Below, one piece after another: positions 5,506 to 31,912 of a DNA stretch of 33,813 nt. A model generated the notes under the pieces. It ran no database searches, had not been told where the DNA came from, and saw only the letters and a program-made list of their open reading frames with translations. Each line of letters begins with the position of its first letter. Position 1 is the stretch's first letter. The DNA is from a virus. The translations under genes and the position numbers were made by a program. The stretch spans positions 1 through 33,813 of the IMG/VR virus record IMGVR_UViG_3300047284_000082; one strand, 5' to 3'.

Positions 5506-5615
5506 ATTTGTGGAATTCAGTTGTAAAATTTATTTATCGGATGTGAGTCAGCTCTGCCGTGTTTAGTTTGCGTCAGCGCAACTATTCAAATGTAAATCAA
5601 TAAATAGGAGACTAA
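5506..5615 (+). promoter_or_regulatory. Capsid gene leader with possible promoter
   Basis: About 110 bases between the terminator and the capsid start. Two weak sigma70-like pairs are visible: TTGTGG (5508) with TATTTA (5531), spacer 17, containing an AATTCAGT motif; and TTGCGT (5568) with TGTAAA (5591). The ribosome binding site TAGGAG lies 7 bases before ATG. A capsid-specific promoter is expected after a terminator, but neither hexamer pair is strong. Confidence 0.4.
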
Positions 5616-6779
5616 ATGTCTGAGTTCGTAAAGGCTCAGCAGGAGATCCGCGCTAACCTAACTGAGCAGATCCGCGATGTAATCGAGGGTGCTGAGAAGG
5701 AAGGCCGTGGACTTGACGCTGCTGAACTACAAAAGATTGACCGCATCGAAGCCGACATCAAGCGTGCTGATGATGCAATCGCAGTTGCTAAGCGCAACGA
5801 GGAGCGCGCACTAGAGGCTTCCGTAGCTTCTAAGGGCTTTGCTCTACCAGAGAAGTCAGAGCGCAACGCTTCTGATGTTCTACGCGAGATTGCTGCTACC
5901 CGTGGCGCTCACACCTTCGGACAAGAGGAAAGAACTCTAGTTCCTTCCACCAACACCGTACCAAAGTCATTCTTTGACGAGGTATTCGATGTTGCTCGTC
6001 TAGTTGGTCCAATGCTAGATGTCGGACAGAGAATCAACACCACTTCTGGTGAAGACATCACCATCCCAACCCTGACTGCATACAGCACCGCAACTCTCAA
6101 GTCTGCTGGTTCTGCTATTGGCGAGTCAGAGCCTACCTACAGCTCCATCACTCTGGGAGCATATAAGTATGGTCTGCTAATTCCTGTGTCGAACGAACTG
6201 ATTGCTGATGCTGGATTCAATATCTCTGCACACCTAGCAGAGCAGGCAGGTAACGGCCTAGGTTACGCAGTCAACGCAGCTCTAACCACTGGAACTGGCT
6301 CAGACCAGCCAAACGGTGTAGTAACTGCTGCTGGCTCTGGTGTAACTGGTGGCACTGGTGTTACCGGTGGATTCACTGCTGACAACTTGATTGACTTGCA
6401 GTACACCCTAGATGGCGCAGCTCGCCGTCTACCAGGTGTTGCATACATGGCTACCGGTACAACTATCGGTGCAATGCGCAAGCTCAAGGACGACGCAGGT
6501 AACTACCTATACCAGGTCAATGTCGGACAGCCAGACAGCTTTGCTGGCTACTCGGTCATTGAGAACCCAGGTATGGCTGCTATCGGAACTGGCGCAAAGT
6601 CCGTTCTATTCGGTCACTTCCCAAGCTACAAGGTCCGTGTTGCTGGCGGTGTTCAGGTTGCAACTTCAACCGACTACGCATTCAACACAGACAGCACCGT
6701 ATTCCGCGTGCTAATGCGTGTTGACGGCGACCTAACCCACGCCTCACACATCAAGTACTTCAAGGGCGCTGCAAGCTAA
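5616..6779 (+). CDS. Major capsid protein (HK97 fold)
   Basis: A 387-residue shell protein. Residues 1-90 form a charged coiled coil (delta domain/internal scaffold), probably removed by the prohead protease. The rest shows the HK97-type body: VPKSFFDEVFDVARLVGPML, the glycine-rich GTGSDQPNGV, YMATGTTIGAMRKLKDD and a C-terminal FRVLMRVDGDLTHASHIKYF. It has a good ribosome binding site (AGGAG), its own leader and flanking terminators, fitting a highly expressed single-gene unit. Confidence 0.95.
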   Translation: MSEFVKAQQEIRANLTEQIRDVIEGAEKEGRGLDAAELQKIDRIEADIKRADDAIAVAKRNEERALEASVASKGFALPEKSERNASDVLREIAATRGAHTFGQEERTLVPSTNTVPKSFFDEVFDVARLVGPMLDVGQRINTTSGEDITIPTLTAYSTATLKSAGSAIGESEPTYSSITLGAYKYGLLIPVSNELIADAGFNISAHLAEQAGNGLGYAVNAALTTGTGSDQPNGVVTAAGSGVTGGTGVTGGFTADNLIDLQYTLDGAARRLPGVAYMATGTTIGAMRKLKDDAGNYLYQVNVGQPDSFAGYSVIENPGMAAIGTGAKSVLFGHFPSYKVRVAGGVQVATSTDYAFNTDSTVFRVLMRVDGDLTHASHIKYFKGAAS

Positions 6780-6793
6780 CCTTTGAAATAAGC

Positions 6794-6834
6794 GAAACCC
6801 CCGTAGTTCTAGGTTGCTGCGGGGGTTTCTTTTT
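6794..6834 (+). terminator. Terminator after capsid gene
   Basis: A 10-bp stem, GAAACCCCCG (6794-6803) with CGGGGGTTTC (6820-6829), a 16-base loop, followed by TTTTT. Genes downstream depend on read-through or an unseen promoter. Confidence 0.9.
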
Positions 6835-6848
6835 GCTATGGTGATGTT

Positions 6849-8033
6849 ATGACCCAACCTAGAATCCAGGGCGCTGTAGCCCTATCGTCAAACACCCCAG
6901 GAATGCCAACTGGGTACGGAAACCAAGGAATGCTGCTGGCTGAGCGAATTATTCAGTCTGGAATGAAGTTTGCGGCATTTTCTAACTATGGCTTAGAAGG
7001 TAGAGCCTCCACCCTAGACATTGCTGGTCAAAAAGTGCCACATTACCCTAGAGGACTGAGTAACTACTCAGATGATGTGATACCGATTTGGTACCAAGAT
7101 TTCAAAAGCAAGAATCCTGATCTAAAAACCGTCTTGATGTTGCTTTACGATGTCTGGGTTTACAACAACATGAAGTTTGATGAGCAAGTCATCGCTTGGG
7201 TGCCGTTAGACCACATAACTCCACCGCCAAATGTCATCAGATTCTTGGAAAAAGACAATGTAATGCCAGTGACAATGGCACCGCACGGCCAAGAGCAGCT
7301 TTCATCGCTAGGAATTCAGTCAACTTACATTCCGCACGGCATAGACACGAAGATTTACAAACCCACGGACAAGATTGAGGGTGTTTTAGCTAGAGAATTT
7401 ATGGGAGTGCCGGATGATGTCTTTTTAGTTGGCATGGTCGCGGCTAACAAAGCCAATGGGGTCATTCACCGTAAAGCTTTCGCTGAAAATCTGCTTGCTT
7501 TTGCAACATTTCACAAAAAATACCCAAACAGTCAGATTTACATTCACACTGAGCCGTCCAGGGCATACGGTGGCTTCGATTTGGCCGTCTTGCTAAAGAG
7601 TGTTGGCCTAGATAAGAGTGCCGTACTGCTTCCAGACCCAATCGCACTGCGTAGCGGCTATCCAGAAACGCACATGGCTGGTTTTTACAGCGCAATGGAT
7701 GTTTTGCTAAGCACAAGCTATGGCGAAGGCTTCGGAATTCCAACCGTAGAGGCCCAGGCCTGCGGAACTCGCGTAATCACAAGCAACTTTGCTGCATCTA
7801 AGGATCTGGCGTCTGAGGATAGCTGGAAGATTGATGGCCAGCCCTTCTGGGACGAAGCGCAGGCATCTTTCTTCTCAATTCCGTCAATAAACGCAACGGC
7901 CCGTGCGCTAGAACACGCTTATCACGCCGAAAGAGGCCCTAGCCAAATCGCTGTTGATTTTGCCAAGCAATTTGATGTAGATGTTGTTTGGAAAGAGAAG
8001 TGGGTGCCGTTCTTCCAATCGGTGTTTGCGTGA
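6849..8033 (+). CDS. Glycosyltransferase family 4-like (GT-B)
   Basis: A 394-residue GT-B enzyme that would transfer a sugar from an activated donor to an acceptor. The N-terminus has GMPTGYGNQGMLLAERI; the C-terminal donor domain carries the E-x7-E motif EGFGIPTVE (Glu293, Glu301) and ACGTRVITSNFAA. IPHGID (about residues 161-166) is also typical of GT4. It starts 15 bases after the capsid terminator and is followed by a GT2 and a cytidylyltransferase, an obvious cassette. Location inside the structural operon suggests modification of capsid or tail protein; host surface glycan or DNA are alternative acceptors. Confidence 0.88.
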   Translation: MTQPRIQGAVALSSNTPGMPTGYGNQGMLLAERIIQSGMKFAAFSNYGLEGRASTLDIAGQKVPHYPRGLSNYSDDVIPIWYQDFKSKNPDLKTVLMLLYDVWVYNNMKFDEQVIAWVPLDHITPPPNVIRFLEKDNVMPVTMAPHGQEQLSSLGIQSTYIPHGIDTKIYKPTDKIEGVLAREFMGVPDDVFLVGMVAANKANGVIHRKAFAENLLAFATFHKKYPNSQIYIHTEPSRAYGGFDLAVLLKSVGLDKSAVLLPDPIALRSGYPETHMAGFYSAMDVLLSTSYGEGFGIPTVEAQACGTRVITSNFAASKDLASEDSWKIDGQPFWDEAQASFFSIPSINATARALEHAYHAERGPSQIAVDFAKQFDVDVVWKEKWVPFFQSVFA

Positions 8034-8677
8034 TTCCAGTTCTAGGCTTTGCAACGCTAAGTAAATTCGATTTAGCGCAAAGACTTCTGGACTCAATTGA
8101 CTATCCGGTTCAAAAACTTGTCATCATTGACAATTCAGGCAAAAAGGCTTGGATACCAGAGCCAAATGAGTTTGTTCAAGAGACATGGACAATTCGGTTG
8201 CCGCACGGACTCGGTGCGAACGGTGCTTGGAATCTGATTATCAAATCAACGCCGTTTGCGCCTTACTGGGTTCTACCAAACGATGATTGCTGGTTTGAGC
8301 CTGGGGCCTTGAAGACGATTGCTGAACAGGTTGACATAACAAAATTCAATTTCGTCAATGTAAACCCTAAATGGTCATGCGTCATTCCTACTGAAAATTC
8401 AGTCAACATTGCTGGGCTATGGGACGAGGCATTCCACCCTGTTTATTTTGATGACAATGACTATGAGTGGAGAATGGACCTGCTAGGCGTAGGATTCCAT
8501 CACATTCCCGCTACGGTCCACCACAATAATTCTTCAACCCTACATAGTGGCTATCACGCGCAGAACAACATAAGCTACGACAACAATCACAAGCTATGGC
8601 GCAAAAAGTTCTCAGAAACAAACACCAACGAGATTGGCTGGAAACTCAGGATCAGGAGAGAAAACAGATGGGACTAA
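8030..8677 (+). CDS. Glycosyltransferase family 2-like (GT-A)
   Basis: About 215 residues with a GT-A fold: IPVLG at the start, VIIDNSG (Asp34), a nucleotide/metal motif LPNDDCWF (Asp85-Asp86) and a late acidic segment YFDDNDYEWRMD, followed by a histidine-rich HHNNSSTLHSG. The start is uncertain. GTG at 8030 overlaps the upstream stop (GTGA) and is preferred; GTG 8000 and TTG 7988 are in frame and would keep a fuller first strand (VCVIPVLG). Second enzyme of the cassette; donor and acceptor unknown. Confidence 0.83.
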   Translation: MIPVLGFATLSKFDLAQRLLDSIDYPVQKLVIIDNSGKKAWIPEPNEFVQETWTIRLPHGLGANGAWNLIIKSTPFAPYWVLPNDDCWFEPGALKTIAEQVDITKFNFVNVNPKWSCVIPTENSVNIAGLWDEAFHPVYFDDNDYEWRMDLLGVGFHHIPATVHHNNSSTLHSGYHAQNNISYDNNHKLWRKKFSETNTNEIGWKLRIRRENRWD

Positions 8678-9706: not shown

Positions 9707-10110
9707 TGGCTTCAATTACCGCAATTCGTACAGGCATCGCTACGAATTTAGCGGGCGTGCCTGGGCTTAGAACATCTGCTGAGATACCAGACAATCCAAC
9801 TCCGCCTATTGGCGTAGTCAACCTAGAGAGCGTGGAGTTTGACGGCGCTTTCAATAGAGGCCTGACTACCTATAACTTCGTTGTTACCGTCATTGTTGGC
9901 CGCGCGGCTGAGCGACAGATGCAAAGAAAACTGGATGGCTACCTAGATGTAGAGGGAGAAAATTCAGTGAAACTTGCGATAGAATCAGATAAGACCCTTT
10001 CGGGGGAAGTGTACGACCTGCGGGTTGAACGCGGCACTTCGATTGGTTCCATAATAATAAACGATCAAACCTATCTGGCGGCTGAATTCACAGTCACCGT
10101 CTTTGCATAA
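9706..10110 (+). CDS. Tail terminator / head-tail joining protein
   Basis: A 134-residue protein starting at GTG that overlaps the connector stop (TAGTG). The pattern (MASITAIRTGIATNLAGVPGLR, then beta strands with FVVTVIVGRAAERQMQRKLDGY and EFTVTVFA) resembles siphovirus tail terminator proteins that cap the tail tube. It is followed directly by the major tail protein, consistent with that role. The family assignment is tentative. Confidence 0.65.
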   Translation: MASITAIRTGIATNLAGVPGLRTSAEIPDNPTPPIGVVNLESVEFDGAFNRGLTTYNFVVTVIVGRAAERQMQRKLDGYLDVEGENSVKLAIESDKTLSGEVYDLRVERGTSIGSIIINDQTYLAAEFTVTVFA

Positions 10111-11013: not shown

Positions 11014-11853
11014 TTGTTACTTGCATCTCTCTTTGGCTCTATTCAGCGCTCCTATCTTTCAGGTGCTGCTAGAGGCTGGGCAGGAACAAGCGCCAAATCA
11101 ACAATTACTATTGGTAATTTCAATGCTCTAACAGAGCTAAATGCAAGCAATAGCAAGGCTACTGTCTCACTTGCCGACCTAAAGGCGCTAGAGCAACAGC
11201 TAAAAGAATTCGGTCCAGATGCCCTAAAGCGCTTCAAGCGCAATGCAAGGCAGCTCGGTACCCCAGCCAGAGATGCACTGAGAAGTGTTTATAGAAGCGT
11301 TGGCATTGCTGGTCCTCTTGGAAGGCCGAATCGCCCTGGTCGTAGATACGACAAGATGGCGACTAATTACAACCACGCAAGACTCAGCTATGAGCGTGGC
11401 TTTGTAGTAGCAAACAGCAGCCGTGGAATTGATGTCAATTACAAGAACCGCAGCGAGGGCAAGGCTCTGCAACAGCTGAAAACAGCTCAGGATGGAACAA
11501 TCTCCATAGTCCGTTTGCTTGTCAAGGCACCTGCTTTTATTGTTGCTGACATGGCCGGTAAGAGCAACCGTAAGCGCATGAATTCGGGAGTTGTTCGTGA
11601 ATATACAACCAACTTATTTGGTGGCCCAAGAGTGGTTGCGACTGAGAAGATGCGTGCTGTAACACCAGCCAGGGTAGAGGCTCGCACTAAGTGGCTACAG
11701 GCTTTAGATCGTCAAGCGCACAACCGCAGGCAGAACAAAGCCTCAAGGTACGCATGGCCTACTATGGAAAAGTACATGGCAAAGCACAAGATAAATGCTG
11801 CTGCGCTAATCAACCAAGTAATACTTGAAACAAATAAGAAGTTGGCTGACTAA
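11014..11853 (+). CDS. Tail/neck protein, HK97 gp10-like candidate
   Basis: About 279 residues. The segment DLKALEQQLKEFGPDALKRF followed by LGTPARDALRSVYRS resembles HK97 gp10-like tail completion proteins; the remainder is basic, with YDKMATNYNHARLSYERGF. TTG 11014 is preferred because AAGGCGG lies 6 bases upstream; an in-frame TTG at 10993 is possible. The position is unusual: between the chaperone terminator and the tape measure, not in the neck cluster. It overlaps the tape measure start by one base. Function is a guess from the helical motif. Confidence 0.6.
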   Translation: MLLASLFGSIQRSYLSGAARGWAGTSAKSTITIGNFNALTELNASNSKATVSLADLKALEQQLKEFGPDALKRFKRNARQLGTPARDALRSVYRSVGIAGPLGRPNRPGRRYDKMATNYNHARLSYERGFVVANSSRGIDVNYKNRSEGKALQQLKTAQDGTISIVRLLVKAPAFIVADMAGKSNRKRMNSGVVREYTTNLFGGPRVVATEKMRAVTPARVEARTKWLQALDRQAHNRRQNKASRYAWPTMEKYMAKHKINAAALINQVILETNKKLAD

Positions 11854-14800
11854 TGGCACTACAGAGTCTTATACTCCCAATTCTGTCTGTATTCCGTTCT
11901 GCGGGATTACAGCAGGCATCTGGCGCGCTTAGAAGCCTTACTGGTAACTTCACAAGTCTGGCCGGACAGATTGGTCTGGCTGCCGGTTCGTTTGCGTCAT
12001 TTTCAGCTTTATCTACAGCTAGAGAGTTTACAACTCAAGCAGTACAAGCTACAAGCCTTTTTGAGCGTAACCTACTTGCCCTAAATCAGGTATTTGAGGA
12101 ACTACAGCCAAGACTTATTTCTTTTACGAAAGAAGTTGAAAGCTATGGTCTTTCACAGTCACAGGCCGCGCAAGCTTCGGTCTTCCTGGGTTCGGTTCTA
12201 AAGCAGTATGGATTCAGTGTCAATGAGTCAGCAGGTCAAACCGAAAGACTTGTAACTCTCGCTCAAGACCTTGCAACTACTTATGGCTACGATGTCCAAG
12301 AAGCCCTCTTAGCTATCACCGCTTTGTTCCGTGGTGAATACGACCCGATTGAAAAGTTCGGTGTCGCCATGAAGCAGAACGAAGTAAACGCTCGTCTTGC
12401 TGCTCAGGGGCTAAATGATCTTGAAGGCGCAGAACTGGCCAATGCCCAGGCCACAGCTCGTCTTGAAATGTTGTTTGAACGCGCCGGAGATTCAGTCGGA
12501 GCGTTTGCTAGGGCCACAGACACTCTCTATGCCTCTCAGCAAAGGTTGAATGCCGTACTTGGCAACCTGCAGATTGCTGCTGGTGCGCCGCTGCAAAAAC
12601 CGCTGGCTGAAATCAACAATATCTTTGCCCAGATTTTTGAGGAAACCGGTCCTGGCATAGCTCAAATCTTTGAGTCCCTAGGTCAATTTATTGACATCCT
12701 TGCTCCAATACTTGGAGAGCTAACCGAGACGGTTCTAAACCTGATTATGCCTTTGCAGCAGGTCATCAACCTGATTGTTGGCGTGCTTGGCCCAGCTTTT
12801 GCAATTCTTCAGCCAATACTTGTCACGCTGAACTCATTGCTTGGCTCTATGAATGCCATGTTGGATGCCGGCAGTGCGGTACTGGCCACCTTTGAACACA
12901 ACTTCAGAATCATGGTTCAAAGAATGGAAGACAATGAGGTCTTCGGTTTCTACCTTGATTTCTTCGGTTGGCTGCTTGGAAACACTAACCCAATAGCCGC
13001 TGGCCTAAATATGCTCACTGATGCCTTTGAGCAGCTAACAGGCGCTGCTCGCGCTGCTATTGGTGAGTTCGATGCTTACAACGGCGGAGCCAGAGCCGCT
13101 TCTGCTGCCGCTCGTAGGGCTGGCTATGAAGCTCGTGATGCCAAAGATTTGTTCAAAGAATTAGATGCGGCCCTAAGAGCAGCTGCTACTGGTGCGCTAG
13201 ACGCAGAAGGCAAACTAGACGGACTAGCAGGCGCTTTCCAACGAGTTGATGACGCAAAGGCCTTAGCTAATGCTAAGCAAGGACTAGAAGACCTTGGCTT
13301 TAGCGCGGGCATGATTGAGGAAATCCTAACTAGGCCAAATTGGAAAGAAATATTCGGTCTAATTGAAGAATACGCTCGTTTGGCAGCAACAGAGGTCAAG
13401 AAGGTATTTGTTCCGCTAGTCGGCTTTATTGAATTCGGTAGCGAAGCTTTTGTAAAGGCTAAGCAAGCTGAACTAGCTAAGAAGATAAACGATCTATTCA
13501 AGAGCAGTGGCACTACAGGCGGCAAGAAGGCAGCTAAAGATGTAGTCAAGGATTTCTTCGACAACATGAAGGACGAAATCCAAAAGCAGACCGTAAGAGA
13601 GCAGCTAAAGCTCAAGGGTGCTTCGGATGGCCTTGTAGATGCAATCCTTGGCTCAGATGCTTGGATGAAGCTATGGCAACAAATCAAGCGCGGCACGCTT
13701 TCACTAGAAGAACTGCAAAAGCAATTCAACAACACTGCTGCCGGTATTCGCGAGCAGAACGAAGCCTATGACGAGGCTAAGCGTAAGCAGGAAGAATACG
13801 ACGAGGCAGTTCGCCGCATAAATGAGCGCCTGCAGGCAGAGCTTGAAAGAATCAGGGAAAAGGCTGACGCAGCCAAACTAGCCGTAAGTGACATGCTTGA
13901 GGGCTTTGTCATTCTGCCTACTCTTGAGCGTGAAATCGGCAGATTTGAAAGCCAGATTACACAAATGCTGTCTTCAATCGAATCGTCTCTGCGTAGCGCA
14001 TTTAGAAACGAAGACATCCTTGAAGACGGATACAAGTCACTACAAGACTTTGCGCGCAGAGAGCTTTCAACCCTGCAAGACCTTGGTCGTCAGCGTGATG
14101 AGTTTGCTAAGCGCTACGATCTAGCGGCAGGCCTAATTGATAACTACAAGAAGGCATTTACTGCTGCTGCAAACCTAACTTCATTGTTCGGCAGCCTAAA
14201 AGACGAAACAGAAAAGCGCACTGTCACAGTCGTAAGCTCCGGCATTATTCGACTCGGTGCTACCCTACGCGAGTTTGGCGTCACTGTTACTAAGTCTTAT
14301 GAAGAACCAATTGCTGCAATTCAGAACAAGACAGAGCAGCTCGTTAGCGGCTTCCGTGACATAGCAACTCGCGCTCGCAGCTTTGCAGAGAATCTGCGCA
14401 AACTTCGCGAGCTAGGCCTTGACCCGATGCTGTTTGACCAGCTAGTTCAGGCTGGTGTTGTTGCCGGTGGCGAGACCGCTCAGGCCTTGGTTGATGGTGG
14501 CTCGGAAACAATCAACGAAATCAACGGATTGTTCCAAGAAATTGACATGCTTGGCGGCGATCTGGGCGAAGAAGTCGCCGCATCTCTCTATGGCAGCGGA
14601 ATCAACATGATGGACGGCTTGCTAGAGGGAATTCGGTCAAAGCAAGAAGAACTTGAAAACACCGCTAGGTCGCTTGCAGAAGCCTTCAACAGAGAATTTC
14701 AGTCAAAGTTCAACATCCAGGTAGGTATTGCTCAAAGTGCTGCTGAAGCGGCTGCTAGGGCTTCTGCGGCACAAGAAATAGCTGACCTAGGCCCACGCCC

Positions 14801-15167: not shown

Positions 15168-16387
15168 TGACAGCTATAGCCCCAAAGGTAGAACTTGGCT
15201 TTGACTTAGCTGCTGGTGTAGGTCCGTTCCTGGTCCTAGACGACCCAGTAGCAGGTCAGTTAGACAACCCTGACTGGGGTCTTGGTGGCACGATTTTCTA
15301 TGATGTGACAGAGTATGTAAAGACCATCGTTATCAACCGTGGTCGTAGCAGCCTGTTTAGCCAGTTCCCAGCTGGAAACGCAACTGTCGCCTTCAACAAT
15401 CACAACCGTTACTTTGACCCGCTTTACACGGCCAGCCCGTTTGTTGGCAACATCATTCCTAAGCGCGAGATTCGCATTTCAGCCGGAACAGAAATTCAGT
15501 TCACCGGTTGGGTAGATGACTGGAACCTGACCTATGCGCCTAACGGAGACTCGATTGCAGACGCTATTGCCTATGACGCTACAGGACTTCTAGCAAGCCG
15601 TACTCTAAGCGCAGGCACGCCAGCAGTTCAAACAACAGGTCAAAGAATAAACACAATTCTTGATGACCCTAGCGTGAACTGGGCAAGCACGCTGAGAACA
15701 GTTGACACCGGACAAGCAACTCTAAGCGACTATCCGATTGACGACAATCAGAATGTTCTTGCTTATCTGCAGACTGTTGCCTCATCAGAGCCAGGTAACT
15801 TATTCATCGGTAAGACCGGTAATGTCGTGTTCCAGGACCGAACAAAGTCGCCTACAAGCGCTGACCTATTGCAGTTCGGTGGCACGGGCATTCCGTTCCA
15901 GAACCTAGAAGTCGTCTACGGATCTGAGAACCTGTACAACGAAATCGTTATCTCGCGTCAGGGCGGCGGCACGGCTGTAGCGACAGACCCAGATTCCATC
16001 AGCGAGTACGGTATCTTCAACCTGACAATCAATAACCTGCTTCTCAGCACAGACGAGCAGAGCGTTGACCTGGCGCTTATCTACGCGCAACAGTACTCCC
16101 AGCCTGAGTACCGCTTCAACGCCCTTGAGGTGGCCATGCACAAGCTTTCGGTTGCCGAGCAGGAAGAAATAAGTCAATTAGAAATCGGTTCTATCTGTAA
16201 GGTGGTCTTTACCCCCAACGGCATAGGCGACCCTATTGAGCGCTTTGTAGAGGTCATCCGCCTGGAGCAGGCCATCACTCCAGAAACCTATTTCGTCAAT
16301 CTCGGCTTCCAGGCTATTGACTTCGCGTCCCTAGTATTGGATGATGCAGAGTTCGGTAAACTAGACACATACAGTTTGAGCTGGTAA
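15167..16387 (+). CDS. Minor tail protein (distal tail/hub)
   Basis: A 406-residue protein directly after the tape measure, overlapping its stop (TAATG). The sequence GRSSLFSQFPAGNATVAFNNHNRYFDPLY is a well-known signature of actinophage minor tail proteins at the tail tip, followed by GWVDDWNLTY and a tail-hub-like body (NLFIGKTGNVVFQDRTK). It likely forms the baseplate hub linking the tube to the fibres. Confidence 0.85.
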   Translation: MTAIAPKVELGFDLAAGVGPFLVLDDPVAGQLDNPDWGLGGTIFYDVTEYVKTIVINRGRSSLFSQFPAGNATVAFNNHNRYFDPLYTASPFVGNIIPKREIRISAGTEIQFTGWVDDWNLTYAPNGDSIADAIAYDATGLLASRTLSAGTPAVQTTGQRINTILDDPSVNWASTLRTVDTGQATLSDYPIDDNQNVLAYLQTVASSEPGNLFIGKTGNVVFQDRTKSPTSADLLQFGGTGIPFQNLEVVYGSENLYNEIVISRQGGGTAVATDPDSISEYGIFNLTINNLLLSTDEQSVDLALIYAQQYSQPEYRFNALEVAMHKLSVAEQEEISQLEIGSICKVVFTPNGIGDPIERFVEVIRLEQAITPETYFVNLGFQAIDFASLVLDDAEFGKLDTYSLSW

Positions 16388-18054: not shown

Positions 18055-18561
18055 ATGGCTATGACACTTGTAAGCACAGTAACAGTCGGTTCGGGCGGTG
18101 CGGCTTCGATTGAATTTACGAACATTGCGCAAACGGGGAAGGACTTGCTTATTGTTCTTAGCAGTCGGGTTGCTTTGGCATCCTCTGCAAGAAGCCTCTA
18201 TTTGAAATTCAACGGCTCAAGCACCTCAGACTATTCGAGTAAATATTTAAGAGGCTCTGGTAGTACCGCTTCATCGGGCAACAATGCTAGTGCGACTGAA
18301 ATGTTTATCGCTGAAATAAACGCTGGTAACAATACAGCAAATACATTCACATCTACTCAAATTTACCTCGCAAATTATTCGGTTTCTCAAAACAATTCAG
18401 TCAGCGTAGATTCTGTGATGGAAAATAATGACACATTTGCGATGTCTTATCTAACTGCTGGTGTAAGAGCCAATACGGCGGCAATTACTAGCCTTGAGCT
18501 TTTTTCCAGCGGCACAACATTCGTTCAATACACAACCGCAAGCCTCTACATCATAAGTTAG
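18055..18561 (+). CDS. Fibre-type adhesin paralogue 3
   Basis: 168 residues, the most divergent member of the set: VSTVTVGSGGAASIEFTNI, KDLLIVLSSR, LKFNGSSTSDYSSKYLRGSG, IYLANYSVSQNNS, VRANTAAITSLELFSSGTTF, ending TASLYIIS. The layout (strand, arginine/asparagine core, LRG, late SL-x-LF block) matches the two genes before it. Only 2 bases separate it from the previous stop. Confidence 0.7.
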   Translation: MAMTLVSTVTVGSGGAASIEFTNIAQTGKDLLIVLSSRVALASSARSLYLKFNGSSTSDYSSKYLRGSGSTASSGNNASATEMFIAEINAGNNTANTFTSTQIYLANYSVSQNNSVSVDSVMENNDTFAMSYLTAGVRANTAAITSLELFSSGTTFVQYTTASLYIIS

Positions 18562-20034: not shown

Positions 20035-20215
20035 TATTGAGTTTTGGTCCTACGCAGGTGAGCGCGCTATCAAGACAGTAGCTCAGGCTGCGCTTGCTTA
20101 TCTAGGAACCGGCACTATCGGCCTATTTCAGATTGACTGGACTTCGCTTGCGTCGGTTTCTCTAGGTGCAGGATTACTGTCAGTTCTTACTTCGATTGTC
20201 ACTCAGAAGGACTAA
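20021..20215 (+). CDS. Holin (r1t-type)
   Basis: 64 residues: FWSYAGERAIKTVAQAALAYLG, then LFQIDWTSLASVSLGAGLLSVLTSIV, matching the two-helix r1t holin family of actinophages. ATG 20021 is chosen; an in-frame ATG at 19958 lies inside the previous gene and would add an implausible N-terminus. It is the last gene of the late rightward block and meets the minus-strand WhiB genes tail to tail with a 4-base overlap. Confidence 0.85.
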   Translation: MKFFSIEFWSYAGERAIKTVAQAALAYLGTGTIGLFQIDWTSLASVSLGAGLLSVLTSIVTQKD

Positions 20216-20481
20216 GCAGCCGACTGCCGTTTCATCTTGATTCGGTCAAGCCTGCTAGTTCCACCCCAAACACCGTAAAGCTCATTTGACGCAATCGCGT
20301 ACTCTGCACAAGCTTTGCGAGCAGGGCATTTAGAACAAAGCTTCTTTGCCATTCGTGTAAAGTCATAGCCTTCGTAAATGTCGCCAAACCATAATTCAGG
20401 GTCAGTGTTCTGACAAGGCACAACAATCGGTGAATTCTCAATAGCCTCTTTCAAGGCTTCGTATGCTCTCTGTGGATTCAT
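20212..20481 (-). CDS. WhiB-family transcriptional regulator
   Basis: 89 residues. Four cluster-binding cysteines (C23, C49, C52, C58) in the pattern C...LCSKCPARKAC, then the WhiB turn YGVWGG (69-74) and a basic tail. WhiB proteins bind a 4Fe-4S cluster and the sigma factor SigA to alter transcription; phage WhiBs can block host WhiB activity. It is the second gene of a two-gene leftward unit, 36 bases after the first. Confidence 0.93.
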   Translation of the reverse strand: MNPQRAYEALKEAIENSPIVVPCQNTDPELWFGDIYEGYDFTRMAKKLCSKCPARKACAEYAIASNELYGVWGGTSRLDRIKMKRQSAA

Positions 20482-20517
20482 GCCTACATCATTAGACAGA
20501 ATTCGATTTCTGTCAAA

Positions 20518-20778
20518 TCAGCGTTCTTCAGGTGAGGTGCCGCCCCAGATTCCGTAGCGCTGATTAGTCCTAAGCGCGTACTCAAAGCATTGCTTTTTGA
20601 TTGGGCATTCGTGACATAAGCCCTTAGCAACTGCCGATGCCTGATGCCGCAGCATCGGGTCGGCTATGTCTTCTGGAAACCAAAGATCAGGATTCTTCTC
20701 GCACGGCACTCCGCCAGCCTGATGTATGGCGTATAACAATTTGGTATACGCACTTGTAAAAAGACCCATGCTTCGCAT
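20518..20778 (-). CDS. WhiB-family transcriptional regulator, short C-terminus
   Basis: 86 residues with cysteines C26, C55, C58 and C64 (GLCHECPIKKQC) and YGIWGGTSPEER at the very end, so the basic tail normally following the turn is almost absent. That suggests a form that binds sigma factor without strong DNA contact. The start is 31 bases from the divergent exonuclease gene; an alternative ATG at 20769 is possible. It contains an inverted repeat (20729-20751) near its 5' end. Confidence 0.9.
   Translation of the reverse strand: MRSMGLFTSAYTKLLYAIHQAGGVPCEKNPDLWFPEDIADPMLRHQASAVAKGLCHECPIKKQCFEYALRTNQRYGIWGGTSPEER
20729..20751. repeat. Inverted repeat inside the second WhiB gene, possible operator
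   Basis: GCGTATA and TATACGC separated by 9 bases form a perfect 7-bp inverted repeat, within 60 bases of both divergent starts. It could be an operator for WhiB autoregulation or the early operon. It is not conserved in the other WhiB gene. Confidence 0.45.
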
Positions 20779-20809: not shown

Positions 20810-21706
20810 GTGGAGATTTATGCACCAGATTTCATAAATGGGGCAAAGCTTCTAGGCAACTTCGAGCCAGGCAGCCCAGAGTGGCACGCAGAACGCTCGA
20901 ACGGTGTCGGAGGTAGCGAGGTCGGAACAATACTCGGCCTAAACCCCTATGAAAGCGCCTATGCACTATGGGCAAAGAAAACAGGCAAGATTGATTCCGA
21001 GGTCAAAGAAAACTGGGCAATTCGGTTCGGTAAGGCCTTTGAAGAACCCATCCTGAAACTATGGATGGAAGAACACCCTGAATGGGATGTCTTTACTACC
21101 GGCACCTACGCCGATGGCGACTGCGCCTACCGGCACGCCAACCCAGATGCCATAGCTATTCACAAGGAAACTAAAGAGCTGATGGTCTTGGAGGTCAAGA
21201 CAGCCCGCAGCACCTGGGAGTCACCGCCGCAGGCTTACTTAGCTCAGGTCTTGCACTACATGGGCGTACTCAAGATTCAGAAGGGTCGCATTGTGGCTGT
21301 TGCCGGAATGACCTGGAACGAATACGAGGTCAGCTGGAACCAAGAGGCGATTGATCTACAGAACGAAATGATTGACGCGTTCTGGCATTCGATTCAGGAA
21401 GACATCAAGCCCGCCTGGGACGGGTCAGAAGCGACCTACAACGCAGTTAGGGCTGAGAACCCGCAGATTGAGATTAGAGAGGTCGAACTGGGTCAGTTGG
21501 GGATTTCACTACTCCAGGCCCAGGAAAAGGCTGACAGGGCCTATTCTGAGCTTCTCAGGGCCAAATCTGAGGTGATGGACAAGATGGGAACCGCCAAGTA
21601 TGGCGTAATCGAAACTTTGAACGGTCCAGAGCGGGTCGTTACACGCCAAATGAGGGCTGGCACGCCATCATTGGTAATCAACAAAAAAGGCACGAGCTGG
21701 GTCTAG
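20810..21706 (+). CDS. YqaJ-like recombination exonuclease
   Basis: 298 residues. A lambda-exonuclease-type PD-(D/E)xK nuclease: GVGGSEVGTILGLNPYESAYALWAKKTGK, FGKAFEEPI, then Asp113 (ANPDAIA), Glu128 and Lys130 (LEVKTA) and QAYLAQVLHYM. It degrades one strand of double-stranded ends for annealing by the next gene. GTG at 20810 is used: the ATG two bases earlier is out of frame and soon stops. First gene of the rightward early block. Confidence 0.93.
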   Translation: MEIYAPDFINGAKLLGNFEPGSPEWHAERSNGVGGSEVGTILGLNPYESAYALWAKKTGKIDSEVKENWAIRFGKAFEEPILKLWMEEHPEWDVFTTGTYADGDCAYRHANPDAIAIHKETKELMVLEVKTARSTWESPPQAYLAQVLHYMGVLKIQKGRIVAVAGMTWNEYEVSWNQEAIDLQNEMIDAFWHSIQEDIKPAWDGSEATYNAVRAENPQIEIREVELGQLGISLLQAQEKADRAYSELLRAKSEVMDKMGTAKYGVIETLNGPERVVTRQMRAGTPSLVINKKGTSWV

Positions 21707-24317: not shown

Positions 24318-24716
24318 GTGGTGATTGAACTCAATGTTGTTGGCAGACCAACCCCGCAAGGGTCTAAGAAAATAATTCATGGTCGCCTCATTGAAGCGCA
24401 ATCAGCAAACCTAAAGAAGTGGCGAGCGGCAATCGAAGAAGCTTGCCAACCGTACGCTAACGAGAACATCTACCTTGGACCAATTCGGTTAGAGGTAGAT
24501 TTCTTTTTAGAACGGCCCAAATCAGTCAAGGCCGGCATTCGGCCAAGGCCAACAGTCCCACCAGACCTAGACAAGCTCGTTCGTGGCGTAGGCGATGGCA
24601 TTGGGCAGTCAGGTTTGATTTTCGGTGATGACTCGCAGATAGTCGAAATAATCGCCCGCAAACACTATGCGGATGACCGCGAGACAGGCGCAATAATCAA
24701 AATTTCGGCTGTATAA
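24318..24716 (+). CDS. rusA: RusA-like Holliday junction resolvase
   Basis: 132 residues. VVGRPTPQGSKK at the N-terminus, PPDLDKLVRGVGDGIGQSGLIFGDDSQI with the acidic metal ligands (Asp83, Asp85, Asp93, Asp104-105), and the lysine in ARKHYAD. It resolves four-way junctions before packaging. GTG starts at 24318 or 24321 are equally possible; no ATG is available. End of the recombination/replication operon. Confidence 0.93.
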   Translation: MVIELNVVGRPTPQGSKKIIHGRLIEAQSANLKKWRAAIEEACQPYANENIYLGPIRLEVDFFLERPKSVKAGIRPRPTVPPDLDKLVRGVGDGIGQSGLIFGDDSQIVEIIARKHYADDRETGAIIKISAV

Positions 24717-24798: not shown

Positions 24799-24996
24799 AT
24801 GAGAGTAAATGAAATCAAGAGTCAAATTGACTTTTACACTGATGCGCTGTTCCAGAACGGTTACGACATGGGCTGGAATTCAGTTCTAGAAGAACTAGAC
24901 CAGCTGTCAGATCGTGCATGGAACAAAGAAAACCCTGCGCTTGCAGAGGCAATCCGCTGGGCTGTAAACCAGGTCAGAGGTGAGTTCAGTGAGTGA
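24799..24996 (+). CDS. Small helical protein, paralogue family A
   Basis: 65 residues (IKSQIDFYTDALFQNGYDMG, WNSVLEELDQLSD). ATG 24799 has a strong ribosome binding site (GAGGAAAGG); an upstream ATG in frame at 24739 precedes the promoter. Layout (aromatic, hydrophobic helix, glycine, E/R-rich helix, W late) resembles the genes at 24989 and 25750. Function unknown. Confidence 0.7.
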   Translation: MRVNEIKSQIDFYTDALFQNGYDMGWNSVLEELDQLSDRAWNKENPALAEAIRWAVNQVRGEFSE

Positions 24997-25449: not shown

Positions 25450-25757
25450 TTTCGATTGTTGTTTGGGAACTTCCAAATTGTGTTCAGTGTATGCAGACCA
25501 AGCGTGAGTTTGACAAGCGCGGAATTCAGTACACAACCCGTCGCCTAGACAAGTCAAAGAAGGCGACTCAGAGGTTCCTAGAGCTGGGCTTCACCCAAGC
25601 TCCAATTATCGAAACCGACACAAAGCGTTGGTCTGGCTTCAGACTAGACAAAATTCAAAGCCTTGAGTATCACCTGAAGTCAGAGCGCGCTCACGGCATC
25701 AATGTACCGCTAGAGCCACTAAAGCAGATAGCGGAGGAAATAGGGGAAAATGAGTGA
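25446..25757 (+). CDS. NrdH/glutaredoxin-like redoxin
   Basis: 103 residues. The redox motif CVQC (Cys12, Cys15) follows a first strand (ISIVVWELPN); FDKRGIQYTTRRLDK and the cis-proline segment FTQAPII, then WSGFRLDKIQ match NrdH-type redoxins that feed electrons to ribonucleotide reductase. No reductase is encoded here, so it would work with a host enzyme. TTG start overlapping the previous stop. It carries a 25-residue tail beyond the usual fold. Confidence 0.85.
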   Translation: MISIVVWELPNCVQCMQTKREFDKRGIQYTTRRLDKSKKATQRFLELGFTQAPIIETDTKRWSGFRLDKIQSLEYHLKSERAHGINVPLEPLKQIAEEIGENE

Positions 25758-26385: not shown

Positions 26386-26612
26386 AAGACGAAAGAGACG
26401 CGGACCTAAACGCGCGTATCTACGCAGACTTTCGGCAGGCCGCAGCCCTACTAAGGGATAAGAACCTAGTGTGGTCTGCCGATCTAGATTGCATCAGAGA
26501 AGACCTAGCCGACTACATAGAGTCACGCGCTCTATTCGGTCAGAGCAATGGTCAGCACCTAATCAATGTTGTTCAACGGCTGTTGGACGACGAGAACGAT
26601 TTGAGTATCTAA
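26367..26612 (+). CDS. Hypothetical helical protein
   Basis: 81 residues (ARIYADFRQAAALLRDKNLV, IREDLADYIESRALF, LINVVQRLLDDENDL). Predicted helical, acidic. Overlaps the HEXXH gene by 19 bases, next ATG by one base. No recognised family. Confidence 0.65.
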   Translation: MANKKLKDERDADLNARIYADFRQAAALLRDKNLVWSADLDCIREDLADYIESRALFGQSNGQHLINVVQRLLDDENDLSI

Positions 26613-26866
26613 TGCAAGATTTCAACTACGAAGACCTAATCAAGCAGTGGGCATACCAAGACGAATTTGAGGGTATTGCCACCAGCTTGCTTGAGGCCGG
26701 AATTCAGTTGGGGGTACAAGCGCTTGGACTGAAGATTGCGCAATACATCATTGATGGCAATGACTTTCCGCACACACCTGAAGAACTTACTGAACTCATG
26801 AATCAAGGGCATGACCACGCAATCAATGAGCTAACAAGGAGGCTAAAGAATGCTAGAGGGGCTTGA
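26612..26866 (+). CDS. Hypothetical helical protein
   Basis: 84 residues (NYEDLIKQWAYQDEFEGIAT, LLEAGIQLGVQALGLKIAQY, FPHTPEELTELMNQGHDHAI). ATG 26612 overlaps the previous TAA; a longer in-frame version from 26471 lies wholly in the previous gene and is not favoured. Composition resembles the family A proteins upstream. Function unknown. Confidence 0.65.
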   Translation: MQDFNYEDLIKQWAYQDEFEGIATSLLEAGIQLGVQALGLKIAQYIIDGNDFPHTPEELTELMNQGHDHAINELTRRLKNARGA

Positions 26867-27086: not shown

Positions 27087-28232
27087 TTGCTAGAGAATCT
27101 GGAGCCAGCTGGCAAGGTCACAGCACCTATGAATTTCAGACCAGGCATCGAGTTCGATGGTCAAGAGGGCATCGCAACTACACCTGGCTACACCGACCAA
27201 CCAAACTTTGAACAGTTCTTGCTTGAGGCAGGATTCGACCCGAACGAGATTGAGATTGTCGGTACACCACGCACCTCACGCTGGCAGAAGTACGACGGCG
27301 AGTGGCTGACTGCTTACCGGTTCAACTTTCGCAAGAAGCTAAATTCGGTTGACTTGCCTTTATTGCTACAAGAAGCAAAGAAGAAGGCCAAGCCAGCCAA
27401 GCCTGCACCTGCCGAGCCACGCTGCCTAGTGATTATGTGGTCCGATTTACAGGTGGGCAAGGTTGATTACCGCGGCAATTCTCAATCACTGATTGAGCGC
27501 GTACAACTTATGCAAACTCGGTTGATGGATTTGGTCAAGCGCGAGAAGCCAGAAAAGATTATCTTTGCTGATCTAGGCGATACCGTAGAAAACTTCAACA
27601 ATGCTGCGGCTATGCAACAGCTACAAAGTAACGACCTAAGCATTATGGAACAGGTGGACCTGGCAACTACATTCGCCTGGCAAACCTTGAAGATGCTTTA
27701 CGAGCGTGTACCAAACATTACCTACGCATCAGTCGGTTCTAATCACTGTCAGTGGCGCGTAGGCCGTGACGCCGTAGGCAAGCCAAGCGACGACTGGGGC
27801 ATCTTTATCGGACGCCAGTTAGCTCGCCTAAGTTCAGAAGCCGGACTGAAAATTCGATTCACCGAGCCTCAGCCGCACGATGAGTCGCTGGCCATAGATG
27901 TATTCGGTGATGGCTTCCACATTCTCGGAGTTGTTCACGGGCATCAGGCCAAGCGTCCGGACATGATGGCAACCTGGTGGCGCGGACAAGCATTCGGGCG
28001 ACAACCAGTCGCAGATGCCTCAGTGCTAATTCACGGACACTGGCATCACCTTAGAGTGACAGAACTCGGATCAACACCACGCGGCACATCGCGCTTCCTA
28101 ATCATGGCTCCAACTATGGACAACGGTTCTGGCTGGTGGAGAAAAGTGACGGGGGAGGACTCAGTGCCTGGACTCGGTGCGTTCTTCCTAGAGAAGGGCG
28201 TGGACTTTACGGGGACGGTTTACAAGCTCTAA
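27087..28232 (+). CDS. Metallophosphoesterase
   Basis: 381 residues from TTG 27087 with GGGAA upstream (ATG 27129 is an alternative). Calcineurin-like motifs: WSDLQVGK (Asp119-120 region), ADLGDTVEN (Asp162, Asp165), GSNHCQWR (Asn219, His220), VVHGH and IHGHWHH. Residues 1-110 are an added N-terminal part with an HTH-like segment and a basic linker (KKKAKPAKPAPAEP). SbcD/Mre11-like nucleases and phosphodiesterases share this fold. No ATPase partner is seen nearby. Confidence 0.85.
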   Translation: MLENLEPAGKVTAPMNFRPGIEFDGQEGIATTPGYTDQPNFEQFLLEAGFDPNEIEIVGTPRTSRWQKYDGEWLTAYRFNFRKKLNSVDLPLLLQEAKKKAKPAKPAPAEPRCLVIMWSDLQVGKVDYRGNSQSLIERVQLMQTRLMDLVKREKPEKIIFADLGDTVENFNNAAAMQQLQSNDLSIMEQVDLATTFAWQTLKMLYERVPNITYASVGSNHCQWRVGRDAVGKPSDDWGIFIGRQLARLSSEAGLKIRFTEPQPHDESLAIDVFGDGFHILGVVHGHQAKRPDMMATWWRGQAFGRQPVADASVLIHGHWHHLRVTELGSTPRGTSRFLIMAPTMDNGSGWWRKVTGEDSVPGLGAFFLEKGVDFTGTVYKL

Positions 28233-28717
28233 TGCCAAACCTAGGAAACGAAACAAGCGTTGCAGGTACAGAAGTCTGGCTAACACCGCCTTACATTCTG
28301 GAAGCACTCGGTGAGTTTGACCTTGACCCTTGTGCATCTGTTGACAGACCATGGGACACCGCTAAGCATCACTTCACAATTGAAGATGACGGACTGGCTC
28401 AGGATTGGTTTGGTCGTGTTTGGTGCAATCCACCTTACGGCCCAAAGCTCGGTCCGTTCTTGCGCAGACTTGCAGATCATGATGAGGGCGGCATAGCTCT
28501 TGTTTTTGCACGCACTGAAACAAAAGCGTTCTTTGACTTCGTATGGGACAGGGCAACCGCCATCTTCTTTATCAAGGGCAGAATTCGGTTCTACAAACCA
28601 AATGGCGAAATCGGTGGAACTGCCGGAAGCCCCTCCGTGCTTATCGCATACGGCGAGCGTGACGCAGAAGTTCTAAAGAACTGTAAACTACCTGGAAAGT
28701 TTGTAAGGATTAGATAA
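28232..28717 (+). CDS. Phage DNA N6-adenine methyltransferase (Dam-like)
   Basis: 161 residues. VWLTPPYILEALGEFDLDPCAS and WCNPPYG (Asn66-Tyr69, the NPPY catalytic motif) with GPKLGPFLRRL are diagnostic of the phage Dam-type family (PF05869-like). It would methylate adenines to avoid host restriction or mark DNA. ATG 28232 overlaps the previous stop. GATC sites are present in the window but the target motif is not certain. Confidence 0.92.
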   Translation: MPNLGNETSVAGTEVWLTPPYILEALGEFDLDPCASVDRPWDTAKHHFTIEDDGLAQDWFGRVWCNPPYGPKLGPFLRRLADHDEGGIALVFARTETKAFFDFVWDRATAIFFIKGRIRFYKPNGEIGGTAGSPSVLIAYGERDAEVLKNCKLPGKFVRIR

Positions 28718-28920
28718 TGCGTAACTGGGAAGAACTGGCAAAGCAGATGCGAGAGCGCGCTCTTTCATCCACTGAGCCGTTCGTCATCAGGGAAACTATC
28801 TACGAACCATCGGAAGAACAGAAGAAGCTTTACTATCACGCTGGTAGATGGGCTGGCGGCGCACGGGATTACACCGCACGCAAGGCCTATGAGCAGTTAC
28901 ATAGAGAAGGCGAAATCTAA
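28717..28920 (+). CDS. Hypothetical protein
   Basis: 67 residues (MRNWEELAKQMRERALSSTE, FVIRETIYEPSEEQKKLYYH, AGGARDYTARKAYEQLHREG). Helical and basic, start-stop coupled to both neighbours. No known domain recognised. Confidence 0.65.
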   Translation: MRNWEELAKQMRERALSSTEPFVIRETIYEPSEEQKKLYYHAGRWAGGARDYTARKAYEQLHREGEI

Positions 28921-29106: not shown

Positions 29107-29135
29107 TTGACAATTCGGTCAAACAGAGTCATAAT
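29107..29135 (+). promoter_or_regulatory. Strong sigma70-type promoter before the HNH gene
   Basis: TTGACA (29107-29112), spacer 17, CATAAT (29130-29135): the best promoter in the window. The -35 is followed by AATTCGGTCAA, giving an inverted repeat TTGAC-N6-GTCAA over the -35, a possible operator. Confidence 0.82.
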
Positions 29136-29254: not shown

Positions 29255-29290
29255 CCAGAAAAAAATTCAGTCAAAATGGCCTTTAAGAAG
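29255..29290 (+). repeat. Control module repeat, copy 1
   Basis: CCAGAAAAAAATTCAGT, then CAAAATGGCCTTTAAG. It matches copy 3 (31863-31893) closely in bases and order, and contains the ATG of the HNH gene (29276). Confidence 0.6.
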
Positions 29291-29593
29291 CCCTGCCTAG
29301 ATTGCGGCAAGCTCAGCTACGAGAGCCGGTGCGAACTACACCGCCGCCGCGTAGAACAGTTGCGCGACATAAAGAGGGCAGAAAAGAAAAAGGCCTACTA
29401 CAACACCGACTACCGCAAGCGGGCAAAGCTAGTCCGAGACACCGCCATTGTCTGCCACATCTGCGGGGACGGCGCTCGCTTGAATGATCCATGGCAAGCC
29501 GACCACCTAGAGCCAGGCAACCCGCTATCACCGCTGGCCGCTGCTCACCGGTCTTGTAATGCCGCCAGAGGCAATAAGCCGCTAGACAAGTAG
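29276..29593 (+). CDS. HNH endonuclease
   Basis: 105 residues. Zinc ligands CLDCGK and CHICGDGA, then WQADHLEPGNPLSPLAAAHRSCNAARGNK, the HNH core typical of actinophage HNH proteins that assist terminase. ATG 29276 starts exactly at the family's usual MAFKKPCLDCG; an in-frame ATG at 29210 would add a proline-rich leader. No clear ribosome binding site: the region before ATG is AAAAAAATTCAGTCAAA. Own strong promoter upstream. Confidence 0.87.
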   Translation: MAFKKPCLDCGKLSYESRCELHRRRVEQLRDIKRAEKKKAYYNTDYRKRAKLVRDTAIVCHICGDGARLNDPWQADHLEPGNPLSPLAAAHRSCNAARGNKPLDK

Positions 29594-29611: not shown

Positions 29612-29660
29612 ATTTTTCAGTCGGGCAAAATTCGGTCAGGCAAAAATTCAGTTAAAAAGC
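29612..29660 (+). repeat. Imperfect triple array of the AATTCRGT element
   Basis: TTTTTCAGTCGGGCA, AAATTCGGTCAGGCA and AAAATTCAGTTAAAA follow one another at 15-16 base spacing. The last unit merges into control module copy 2. Confidence 0.55.
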
Positions 29661-29682
29661 CTTTTAACGCGCGCCCGCGAGA
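29641..29682 (+). repeat. Control module repeat, copy 2
   Basis: AAAAATTCAGTTAAAAAGCC then TTTTAACGCGCGCCCGCGAGA, nearly identical to copy 3 (31869-31912). It holds a perfect inverted repeat GTTAAAA-AGCC-TTTTAAC (29651-29668) and a GC-rich alternating segment. It lies just before a LexA box. Confidence 0.72.
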
Positions 29683-30354: not shown

Positions 30355-30470
30355 TGGAATACACAATTACCCGCCTGCCTGAATGGACAGACGATCAATG
30401 GGAAGCACTAATTGACGCTATCGAAGAAACAGTAGTAGCCGTCGCGACAGACTGGGAGGACGCAGAATGA
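30354..30470 (+). CDS. 38-residue acidic protein
   Basis: MEYTITRLPEWTDDQWEALI then DAIEETVVAVATDWEDAE. Start overlaps the previous stop and has GGAGAG upstream; its stop overlaps the next ATG (ATGA). The first codons share 13 bases (AATACACAATTAC) with the start of gene 30685. Highly acidic, which in phages can mean DNA mimicry; that is speculation. Confidence 0.62.
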   Translation: MEYTITRLPEWTDDQWEALIDAIEETVVAVATDWEDAE

Positions 30471-30685
30471 ATAAGCAAGAAATAAAGCCAAATCTACGCC
30501 GCACCTATCGCGCAGATAGTTTCTTACACGGCGCAACGCTGGAGTTTCCGGTGGACGGACACAGCGACCTATCGGACGCAGACTGGGAAGAAATAGCGGC
30601 AGACGAGCTGAACTTTATGGTCCGCGACGACCGCAACTGGGTAATAGTCCAATACGGCGACGAGGAAGAACTGGAGGAGAACTAA
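30467..30685 (+). CDS. Hypothetical acidic protein
   Basis: 72 residues: RRTYRADSFLHGATLEFPVD, SDADWEEIAADELNFMVRDD, NWVIVQYGDEEELEEN. Beta then alpha pattern with an acidic end, no recognised domain. Coupled by ATGA to the gene before and TAATG to the gene after. Confidence 0.65.
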   Translation: MNKQEIKPNLRRTYRADSFLHGATLEFPVDGHSDLSDADWEEIAADELNFMVRDDRNWVIVQYGDEEELEEN

Positions 30686-30852
30686 TGAAATACACAATTA
30701 CGATCACCGGACAGTTTGAGATAGAAATACCCGAACTTGACGACGACGAGCGCAAATACATAAGCGACTTCTACGAAACAGCCGTATTACCTGCCGGCTA
30801 TGAGGACGCTGAATACTTAGGCGGCAGTATTACTTTTGAGGAGAGCAACTAA
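30685..30852 (+). CDS. 55-residue acidic protein
   Basis: MKYTITITGQFEIEIPELDD, ERKYISDFYETAVLPAGYED, AEYLGGSITFEESN. Probably a small beta-sheet protein. Its start (MKYTIT) resembles that of gene 30354 (MEYTIT). GGAGGAGA precedes the ATG and GAGGAGAGCAACTAATG ends it, the same junction as at 30341. Function unknown. Confidence 0.62.
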   Translation: MKYTITITGQFEIEIPELDDDERKYISDFYETAVLPAGYEDAEYLGGSITFEESN

Positions 30853-31058: not shown

Positions 31059-31240
31059 TGACAGCGCAACAAATTTTCGAGAAGTCTTTAGAACTATACG
31101 AAAATGGCGGGCAGTCTGCCGTATTGGAATGGGCAGCTACGCAACTAACTTGCGACTGGAAGTATTGCGACCCTTGCGAATACAACTCGCCGGTGCTAGG
31201 TGGATTATGCCTAGTTTGCTGGAGTGAAATAAAAAATTAG
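31058..31240 (+). CDS. Small zinc-ribbon-like protein
   Basis: 60 residues; helical start (TAQQIFEKSLELYENGGQSA) and a cysteine-rich end (CDWKYCDPCEYNSPVLGGLC, LVCW) that could bind zinc. ATG 31058 overlaps the upstream TAA and has TTGGAGG upstream; an in-frame start at 31037 is disfavoured. Immediately followed by a run of nine G. Confidence 0.65.
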   Translation: MTAQQIFEKSLELYENGGQSAVLEWAATQLTCDWKYCDPCEYNSPVLGGLCLVCWSEIKN

Positions 31241-31333
31241 GGGGGGGGTTAGATGCCCGCCTAAGCAACAAAAAAACAAATTATCAACCGACGCAACAAC
31301 AACAATAAAAAAGAGAAAGAGAGAAAGAAACAA

Positions 31334-31567
31334 ATGGATCAAGAAATGACTTACACCGTAATCGGGCCAGACGGCCAAATGGATTACATTTGGGCAGACA
31401 CAATGTACGACGCCTATCTACAGGGACTAGAACAATACGGAAACGGCACAATGGTTCGCCCTAGTTTCTATAAAGAATGGAATTGCGGAATGTATAAGGA
31501 GGGTGATAGGTGCGGCCACGACAAATACGGTAATCACATAAGAGCTGAGGAGGTAGTGCGTGGATAA
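31334..31567 (+). CDS. Hypothetical protein
   Basis: 77 residues: TYTVIGPDGQMDYIWADTMY, DAYLQGLEQYGNGTMV, FYKEWNCGMYKEGDRCGHDK. CGMYKEGDRCGH may bind a metal. The 93 bases before it (31241-31333) hold the G9 run and a purine-rich AGAAAGAGAGAAAG leader that includes the ribosome binding site. Confidence 0.65.
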   Translation: MDQEMTYTVIGPDGQMDYIWADTMYDAYLQGLEQYGNGTMVRPSFYKEWNCGMYKEGDRCGHDKYGNHIRAEEVVRG

Positions 31568-31853
31568 GCTCACCTACGCCGCCTGGGTTGCTATGACGCT
31601 ACGGGACGCAGGACTAAAAAGCGACCCGCAAGCCAGAGATAGCTACTGGAGTAAGACCGGCAGAATAAACAAATACGACGAATACCGCGCCTATTGTAAG
31701 GCCGAGAAAAGACAGCCAGACAATCCGCCAGAAGGCTATTGGGAGAGTAAAGAAAAGCCCTGGCATAAGCCCGCAGGAATAACTATGGGACTTATGGGAG
31801 TTCTAATTTGGTTTGTCTCCGGAGTGATCGGAGGGACAACAGGCCGCCGGTGA
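31560..31853 (+). CDS. Small membrane-anchored protein
   Basis: 97 residues from GTG. The soluble part is basic and aromatic (YWSKTGRINKYDEYRAYCKA) and the C-terminus is a membrane helix (GITMGLMGVLIWFVSGVIGG). Overlaps the preceding gene by 8 bases. Last gene of the first short-gene operon. Function unknown. Confidence 0.65.
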   Translation: MDKLTYAAWVAMTLRDAGLKSDPQARDSYWSKTGRINKYDEYRAYCKAEKRQPDNPPEGYWESKEKPWHKPAGITMGLMGVLIWFVSGVIGGTTGRR

Positions 31854-31868
31854 AAATTCCGGCCAGAA

Positions 31869-31912
31869 AAAAATTCAGTTAAAAAGCCTTTAACGCGCGC
31901 GCCCGCGCGAGA
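31869..31912 (+). repeat. Control module repeat, copy 3
   Basis: AAAAATTCAGTTAAAAAGCC then TTTAACGCGCGCGCCCGCGC. The inverted repeat is GTTAAA-AAGCC-TTTAAC. One T is missing relative to copy 2, but the symmetry of the inverted repeat is kept. Confidence 0.72.

Follow-up and report, generated by a model that had tools for sequence, protein, structure and literature searches.

A strand-polar sequence word that covaries with a zinc-ribbon HNH endonuclease in a group of actinobacterial phages

Results

The stretch of DNA analysed in this study, which we refer to as the window, is the 33.8-kb virus record IMGVR_UViG_3300047284_000082 (33,813 nucleotides), whose large terminase shares 59% identity with its counterpart in phiPsal1, a Pontimonas phage of the Microbacteriaceae, and for which 399 relatives were found among viral contigs. 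It encodes, in this order, the small terminase (TerS), the large terminase (TerL), portal, protease, capsid and tail proteins, an M23 peptidase and, on the minus strand, two whiB-like genes, followed by a RecE-like exonuclease, an O-like replication protein, RusA, an exonuclease labelled SbcD-like in this analysis, a Dam-family methyltransferase and a zinc-ribbon HNH endonuclease. Judged by this gene order, the genome belongs to a tailed phage whose tape measure is long. Our investigation concerns the octamer AATTCRGT, its core TTCRGT and their relationship to the HNH gene.

A sequence-only reading of the window had listed 22 copies of the octamer, all of them on the plus strand. Each of the listed start positions proved correct (Table 1) and the minus strand is devoid of the word, at a chance expectation from base composition of about one copy per strand. 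The polarity extends to shorter versions, with 38 copies of ATTCRGT on the plus and 1 on the minus strand and 71 and 11 copies, respectively, of the wider core TTCRGT, and when ranked by its codon-null score, TTCGGT is the most over-represented hexamer of the genome. Beyond the core, there is a preference for A or AA on the 5' side and for a pyrimidine on the 3' side; as read from the sequence, the full preference is AATTCRGT followed by C or T, with TTCRGT as functional core. Further copies starting with T, G or C exist as described, although they number 16 instead of about 14. As reported, the octamer is missing from the first 5.5 kb, but this does not apply to the core, of which 13 copies are found in this region; the core is evenly distributed along the genome (Kolmogorov-Smirnov p=0.34), with none after position 31879. 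A literature search for the word itself returned nothing relevant.

The codon-preserving shuffle, which had been set beforehand as a refuting test, did not reproduce the count. In 1000 synonymous-codon shuffles of the 57 called genes, AATTCRGT occurs 2.2±1.4 times, with a maximum of 8, compared to 16 observed copies. On the plus strand of these genes, the 31 copies of ATTCRGT and 62 copies of TTCRGT exceed the 5.6±2.2 and 16.4±3.7 found after shuffling, whereas the minus strand holds fewer copies of the core than expected (8 vs 18.2±3.6) and lacks ATTCRGT, at an expectation of 2.8. These shuffles rule out codon or dipeptide bias as the cause of the excess. Sixteen of the 22 octamers reside within called genes, where all three reading frames are used as had been proposed, and six outside, with the non-coding share of the window amounting to 10.6%.

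The claim that the signal acts at the level of DNA is borne out by the codon null and by the minus-strand whiB-like genes, which carry the word in genome orientation. In the window, GATTCGGT is located at 20239, antisense within the first of these genes, and across relatives the whiB-like genes on the minus strand contain TTCRGT six times in genome-plus and never in genome-minus orientation, a small number in which overlapping matches were counted once. A signal at the RNA level is disfavoured by the same genes. The two WhiB-like genes form a tandem pair that is kept together in many relatives. Relatives keep sites of the motif more often than control hexamers, as in G004 with 59% compared to 32%, and each pairwise comparison reveals 5-15 sites that are absent from the window, so that both position and number of sites seem to be under selection.

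A comparison of gene content has shown that motif-bearing phages have the zinc-ribbon HNH gene (29276-29593 in the window) in common. The motif is absent from two sister phages whose backbone gene is 80% identical, one of which contains another HNH (G390), while no HNH was found in the contig of the other (G389). This relationship was quantified in a rank correlation between the codon-null enrichment of TTCGGT, calculated with the HNH region left out, and the identity to the respective window protein across 84 related loci. The excess correlates with identity of the HNH (rho 0.76) but not of the SbcD-like backbone gene (rho -0.03), in a statistic chosen post hoc to replace a Mantel test that had given a weak result, and with p-values that overstate independence since the loci are related by descent. 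Where the backbone is close and the HNH far, TTCGGT is found 17 times at an expectation of 16.7, compared to 180 times at an expectation of 59.6 in the opposite combination of a far backbone and a close HNH, and on the level of the tree the motif label requires 4 changes instead of about 13 in shuffles. The spelling of the word changes as well. In G422 and G423, TTCAGT is the third-ranked hexamer, with TTCGGT at ranks 49 and 126, whereas the polar word of G425 is TCTGGT (46:10, hexamer rank 8), which is also polar in G424 (36:4), where the codon null leaves a modest excess (z 2.7). Presence and spelling of the motif thus track the HNH allele. Two further genes (28717-28920 and 24039-24311) correlate equally but occur in only 15 and 21 loci and were undetected in the motif-bearing clade-C contigs G384, G386 and G388, which excludes them as a general cause.

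In at least 12 contigs, the matching word forms dense clusters that start within about 25 bp 3' of the HNH stop codon, with a period of 11 bp in G425, and these arrays adjoin HNH regardless of its distance to TerS. The version found in the window is small and consists of three words at 29616-29652, with further copies upstream at 29112 and 29264. In the HNH tree, G005 pairs with G424 as its sister, which is not the case in the tree of TerS, and in both genomes arrays of the TTTGGT/TCTGGT/TTCGGT type adjoin HNH. As a separate observation, the window holds a near-identical pair of segments about 2.2 kb apart (29641-29675 and 31868-31902, AAAAATTCAGTTAAAAAGCC..TTTAACGCGCGC), each located 5' of a promoter-like region.

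The HNH protein consists of an N-terminal CxxC..CxxH ribbon followed by the HNH motif, in line with a beta-beta-alpha-metal fold. In an alignment, C7, C10 and C19 are invariant and C60, C63, D76, H77, H91, C94 and N95 invariant or near-invariant. In comparison to the family PF01844, the window protein scores below (E 0.038) and that of L252 above the cutoff. A predicted structure with a mean predicted local distance difference test score (pLDDT) of 88.7 finds its best structural matches, with weak E-values, in HNH restriction enzymes and the HNH domains of Cas9, and a profile search of solved structures gave no match. In relatives, the gene lies 0.1-5 kb ahead of terS; for the window, a joining of the ends would place it at a distance of about 4.3 kb. 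Contigs of seven close relatives from different metagenomes (L004, L006, L010, L011, L013, L015 and L019) share the same start base about 57 bp 5' of terS, pointing to a fixed genome end. In phiPsal1 (L081, MG835450.1), a zinc-ribbon HNH gene that is unannotated in the record is found at 30533-30841, directly preceding terS when the map is read as a circle. Among the compared relatives, a counterpart of the window gene for the Dam-family methyltransferase (28136-28717) was detected in G383 alone.

Table 1. Copies of the octamer and related features in the window.
Feature	Position	Strand	Context
AATTCAGT	5514..5521	+	intergenic, 5' of capsid gene
AATTCAGT	7313..7320	+	within glycosyltransferase gene
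AATTCGGT	8191..8198	+	within a gene
AATTCAGT	8396..8403	+	within a gene
AATTCAGT	9961..9968	+	within a gene
AATTCGGT	11207..11214	+	within a gene
AATTCGGT	13432..13439	+	within tape-measure gene
AATTCGGT	14630..14637	+	within tape-measure gene
AATTCAGT	15493..15500	+	within a gene
AATTCAGT	18394..18401	+	within a gene
AATTCGGT	21019..21026	+	within RecE-like exonuclease gene
AATTCGGT	24482..24489	+	within RusA gene
AATTCAGT	24877..24884	+	within a gene
AATTCAGT	25523..25530	+	within glutaredoxin-like gene
AATTCAGT	26701..26708	+	outside gene set of the null; inside alternative open reading frame 26471-26866
AATTCGGT	27342..27349	+	within SbcD-like exonuclease gene
AATTCGGT	28582..28589	+	within Dam-family methyltransferase gene
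AATTCGGT	29112..29119	+	in spacer of promoter-like TTGACA-17-CATAAT (read from sequence) 5' of HNH gene
AATTCAGT	29264..29271	+	4 bases 5' of likely HNH start codon
Zinc-ribbon HNH endonuclease gene (105 amino acids), candidate recogniser	29276..29593	+	
Cluster of three words: TTCAGT, AATTCGGT at 29629, AATTCAGT at 29645	29616..29652	+	directly 3' of HNH stop codon
AATTCAGT	31872..31879	+	intergenic, in copy of sequence around 29645
Small terminase (TerS) gene (150 amino acids), rival recogniser	45..497	+	
Two whiB-like genes, strand control	20212..20778	-	

Discussion

What has been observed directly is the polar word with its excess over codon usage, the covariation of this word with the HNH allele and the arrays beside the HNH gene, and from this we infer that HNH binds to the word, that it nicks there and that the phage benefits from this activity. 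With a probability of roughly 55%, we regard the word as a site recognised by the zinc-ribbon HNH endonuclease that the phage itself encodes, an enzyme which most likely nicks the plus strand at TTCR^GT. In such a mechanism, HNH would be a nuclease of the packaging-associated kind that introduces single nicks into the plus strand during late replication or packaging, so that one strand would be discontinuous at numerous positions, as has been mapped for the phages tf, phiKMV and T5. The single orientation of the sites would keep the opposite strand whole, whereas with sites in both orientations neighboring nicks would result in double-strand breaks. The benefit may lie in packaging, torsional relief or recombination.

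Several observations weigh against this assignment. The Mantel test on raw polarity was weak (HNH partial r 0.08, p=0.07). The depletion on the minus strand applies to the clade of the window but is not found in the pooled relatives (146 vs 138.6 expected). There is no evident motif in the HNH class of G434, and in another class, represented by L263, L265 and L267, arrays of CGGAACCAC are located upstream of the HNH gene, with little or no excess elsewhere. The genome also contains many more sites than those of tf or T5. In Firmicute phages with an HNH of the type found in phage Gamma, no genome-wide excess of YCGGT was detected, and the phenomenon is thus not general to HNH phages. Finally, across 41 loci, TerS identity tracks the excess of TTCGGT as well as HNH identity (rho 0.79 vs 0.75), with partial correlations of 0.53 for TerS and 0.42 for HNH, and the trees of both proteins need 4 label changes. 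These correlations, and the helical 11-bp spacing of the arrays in G425, would be accounted for if the word were instead bound by TerS or the terminase complex, with arrays acting in packaging recognition, scattered co-oriented copies setting the direction of packaging and HNH being part of the same machine. We consider this explanation unlikely, although it deserves serious attention. The array of the window is located about 4.2 kb from the fixed-looking genome end adjoining TerS, which exceeds the distance expected of a normal cos-bound site, and arrays generally adjoin HNH whatever the distance to TerS. Moreover, G005 and G424 have HNH kinship and similar array words in common but not TerS kinship. 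Judged from these sequence relationships, the array position and the latter case favour HNH over TerS.

Among the three explanations offered by the sequence-only reading, a strand-polarity signal for replication or packaging came closest, in light of a motif that tracks an HNH endonuclease and the small terminase, whereas the two others, a stoperator and a Chi site of the host, are not supported. The stoperators known from cluster A mycobacteriophages serve as repressor sites, lie mainly between genes and are oriented with transcription, and they resemble the present case in that an actinophage carries many asymmetric sites of the same orientation. The word might be bound by a regulator of the phage, which may be HNH itself, to stop transcription, with a polarity that follows the latter, as would be compatible with the copy at 29112 inside a promoter-like spacer and with arrays that flank the HNH gene and precede promoter-like sequences. 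However, the sites of the window are mostly intragenic and found in all frames, their orientation in the minus-strand whiB genes is that of the genome and not of transcription, and no repressor was recognised among the proteins covered by family searches, which renders this role improbable. A recombination hotspot copied from the host would share the excess of an oriented octamer with Chi and other such words, and would be consistent with the one-strand excess and the minus-strand depletion in the clade of the window. We find this very hard to reconcile with the host side. In 150 genomes of Microbacteriaceae and 198 at the level of the class (Actinomycetes), AATTCRGT does not exceed roughly one copy in 8-10 kb with both strands taken together, leaving about 345 actinobacterial genomes without a dense word, and where positions were listed, in three cases at length, the word is strand-mixed; this evidence is strong though incomplete, with the exact host remaining unidentified. 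An apparent polarity in the host-group genome G083 was gone in a fuller position list. Unlike Chi, the word is thus not a feature of candidate host genomes but tied to a phage gene, with a spelling that shifts with the HNH allele. Type III restriction, for which phage T7 and EcoP15I provide a known case of strand bias, could account for the bias in orientation and the minus-strand depletion in the clade of the window, as sites in one orientation escape cleavage. Since avoidance leaves the four- to seven-fold plus-strand excess over the codon null and the arrays beside HNH unexplained, we regard it as the most remote of these alternatives.

More tentatively than for the recognition of the word by HNH itself, and with less than even confidence, we propose a large group of actinobacterial phages with self-nicking genomes, in which a fast-diversifying zinc-ribbon HNH nickase would co-evolve in lock-and-key manner with dozens of sites on one strand and an array beside its gene. 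It has been known for 50 years that phage genomes can carry nicks in one strand, whose function is unexplained. If this proposal is correct, an enzyme class behind such genomes would be identified and the nicks would be maintained by selection. Covarying word spellings and a small HNH across dozens of phages would define a concrete enzyme-site pair, and TTCGGT, TTCRGT, TTCAGT and TCTGGT would provide a natural series of specificity variants for protein-DNA recognition.

Among characterized enzymes, the HNH of phage Gamma (gHNH) nicks YCG^GT, corresponding to AC^CGR (PMC8845596), a site which contains the core TCGGT seen in the word of the window. gHNH and HNHE of GVE2 show low sequence similarity to the window protein, with which they share the small size, the N-terminal CxxC..CxxH ribbon and the C-terminal HNH; their genes are located in the neighborhood of the terminase. 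Nicked genomes have been described for tf, with 14 sites of the motif TACT/RTGMC on one strand (PMC3517423), and for Rembedalsseter, with 13 sites of the motif WACTRTGAC in fixed orientation (PMC11780129). The function of the nicks in these phages and their relatives is unexplained (PMC3517423, PMC11780129). The study on tf names no nickase, cites the genes sciA and sciB for T5 and has proposed co-evolution of a nickase with its sites (PMC3517423), and no nicking enzyme is named for Rembedalsseter (PMC11780129). With tf, Rembedalsseter, phiKMV and T5, the group investigated here shares a short asymmetric word that is over-represented and confined to one strand, mostly intragenic and kept in relatives of low DNA similarity. 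It differs from these phages in its word and host, in nicks that are at this stage predicted, in the arrays adjoining HNH and in a spelling of the word that covaries with this protein.

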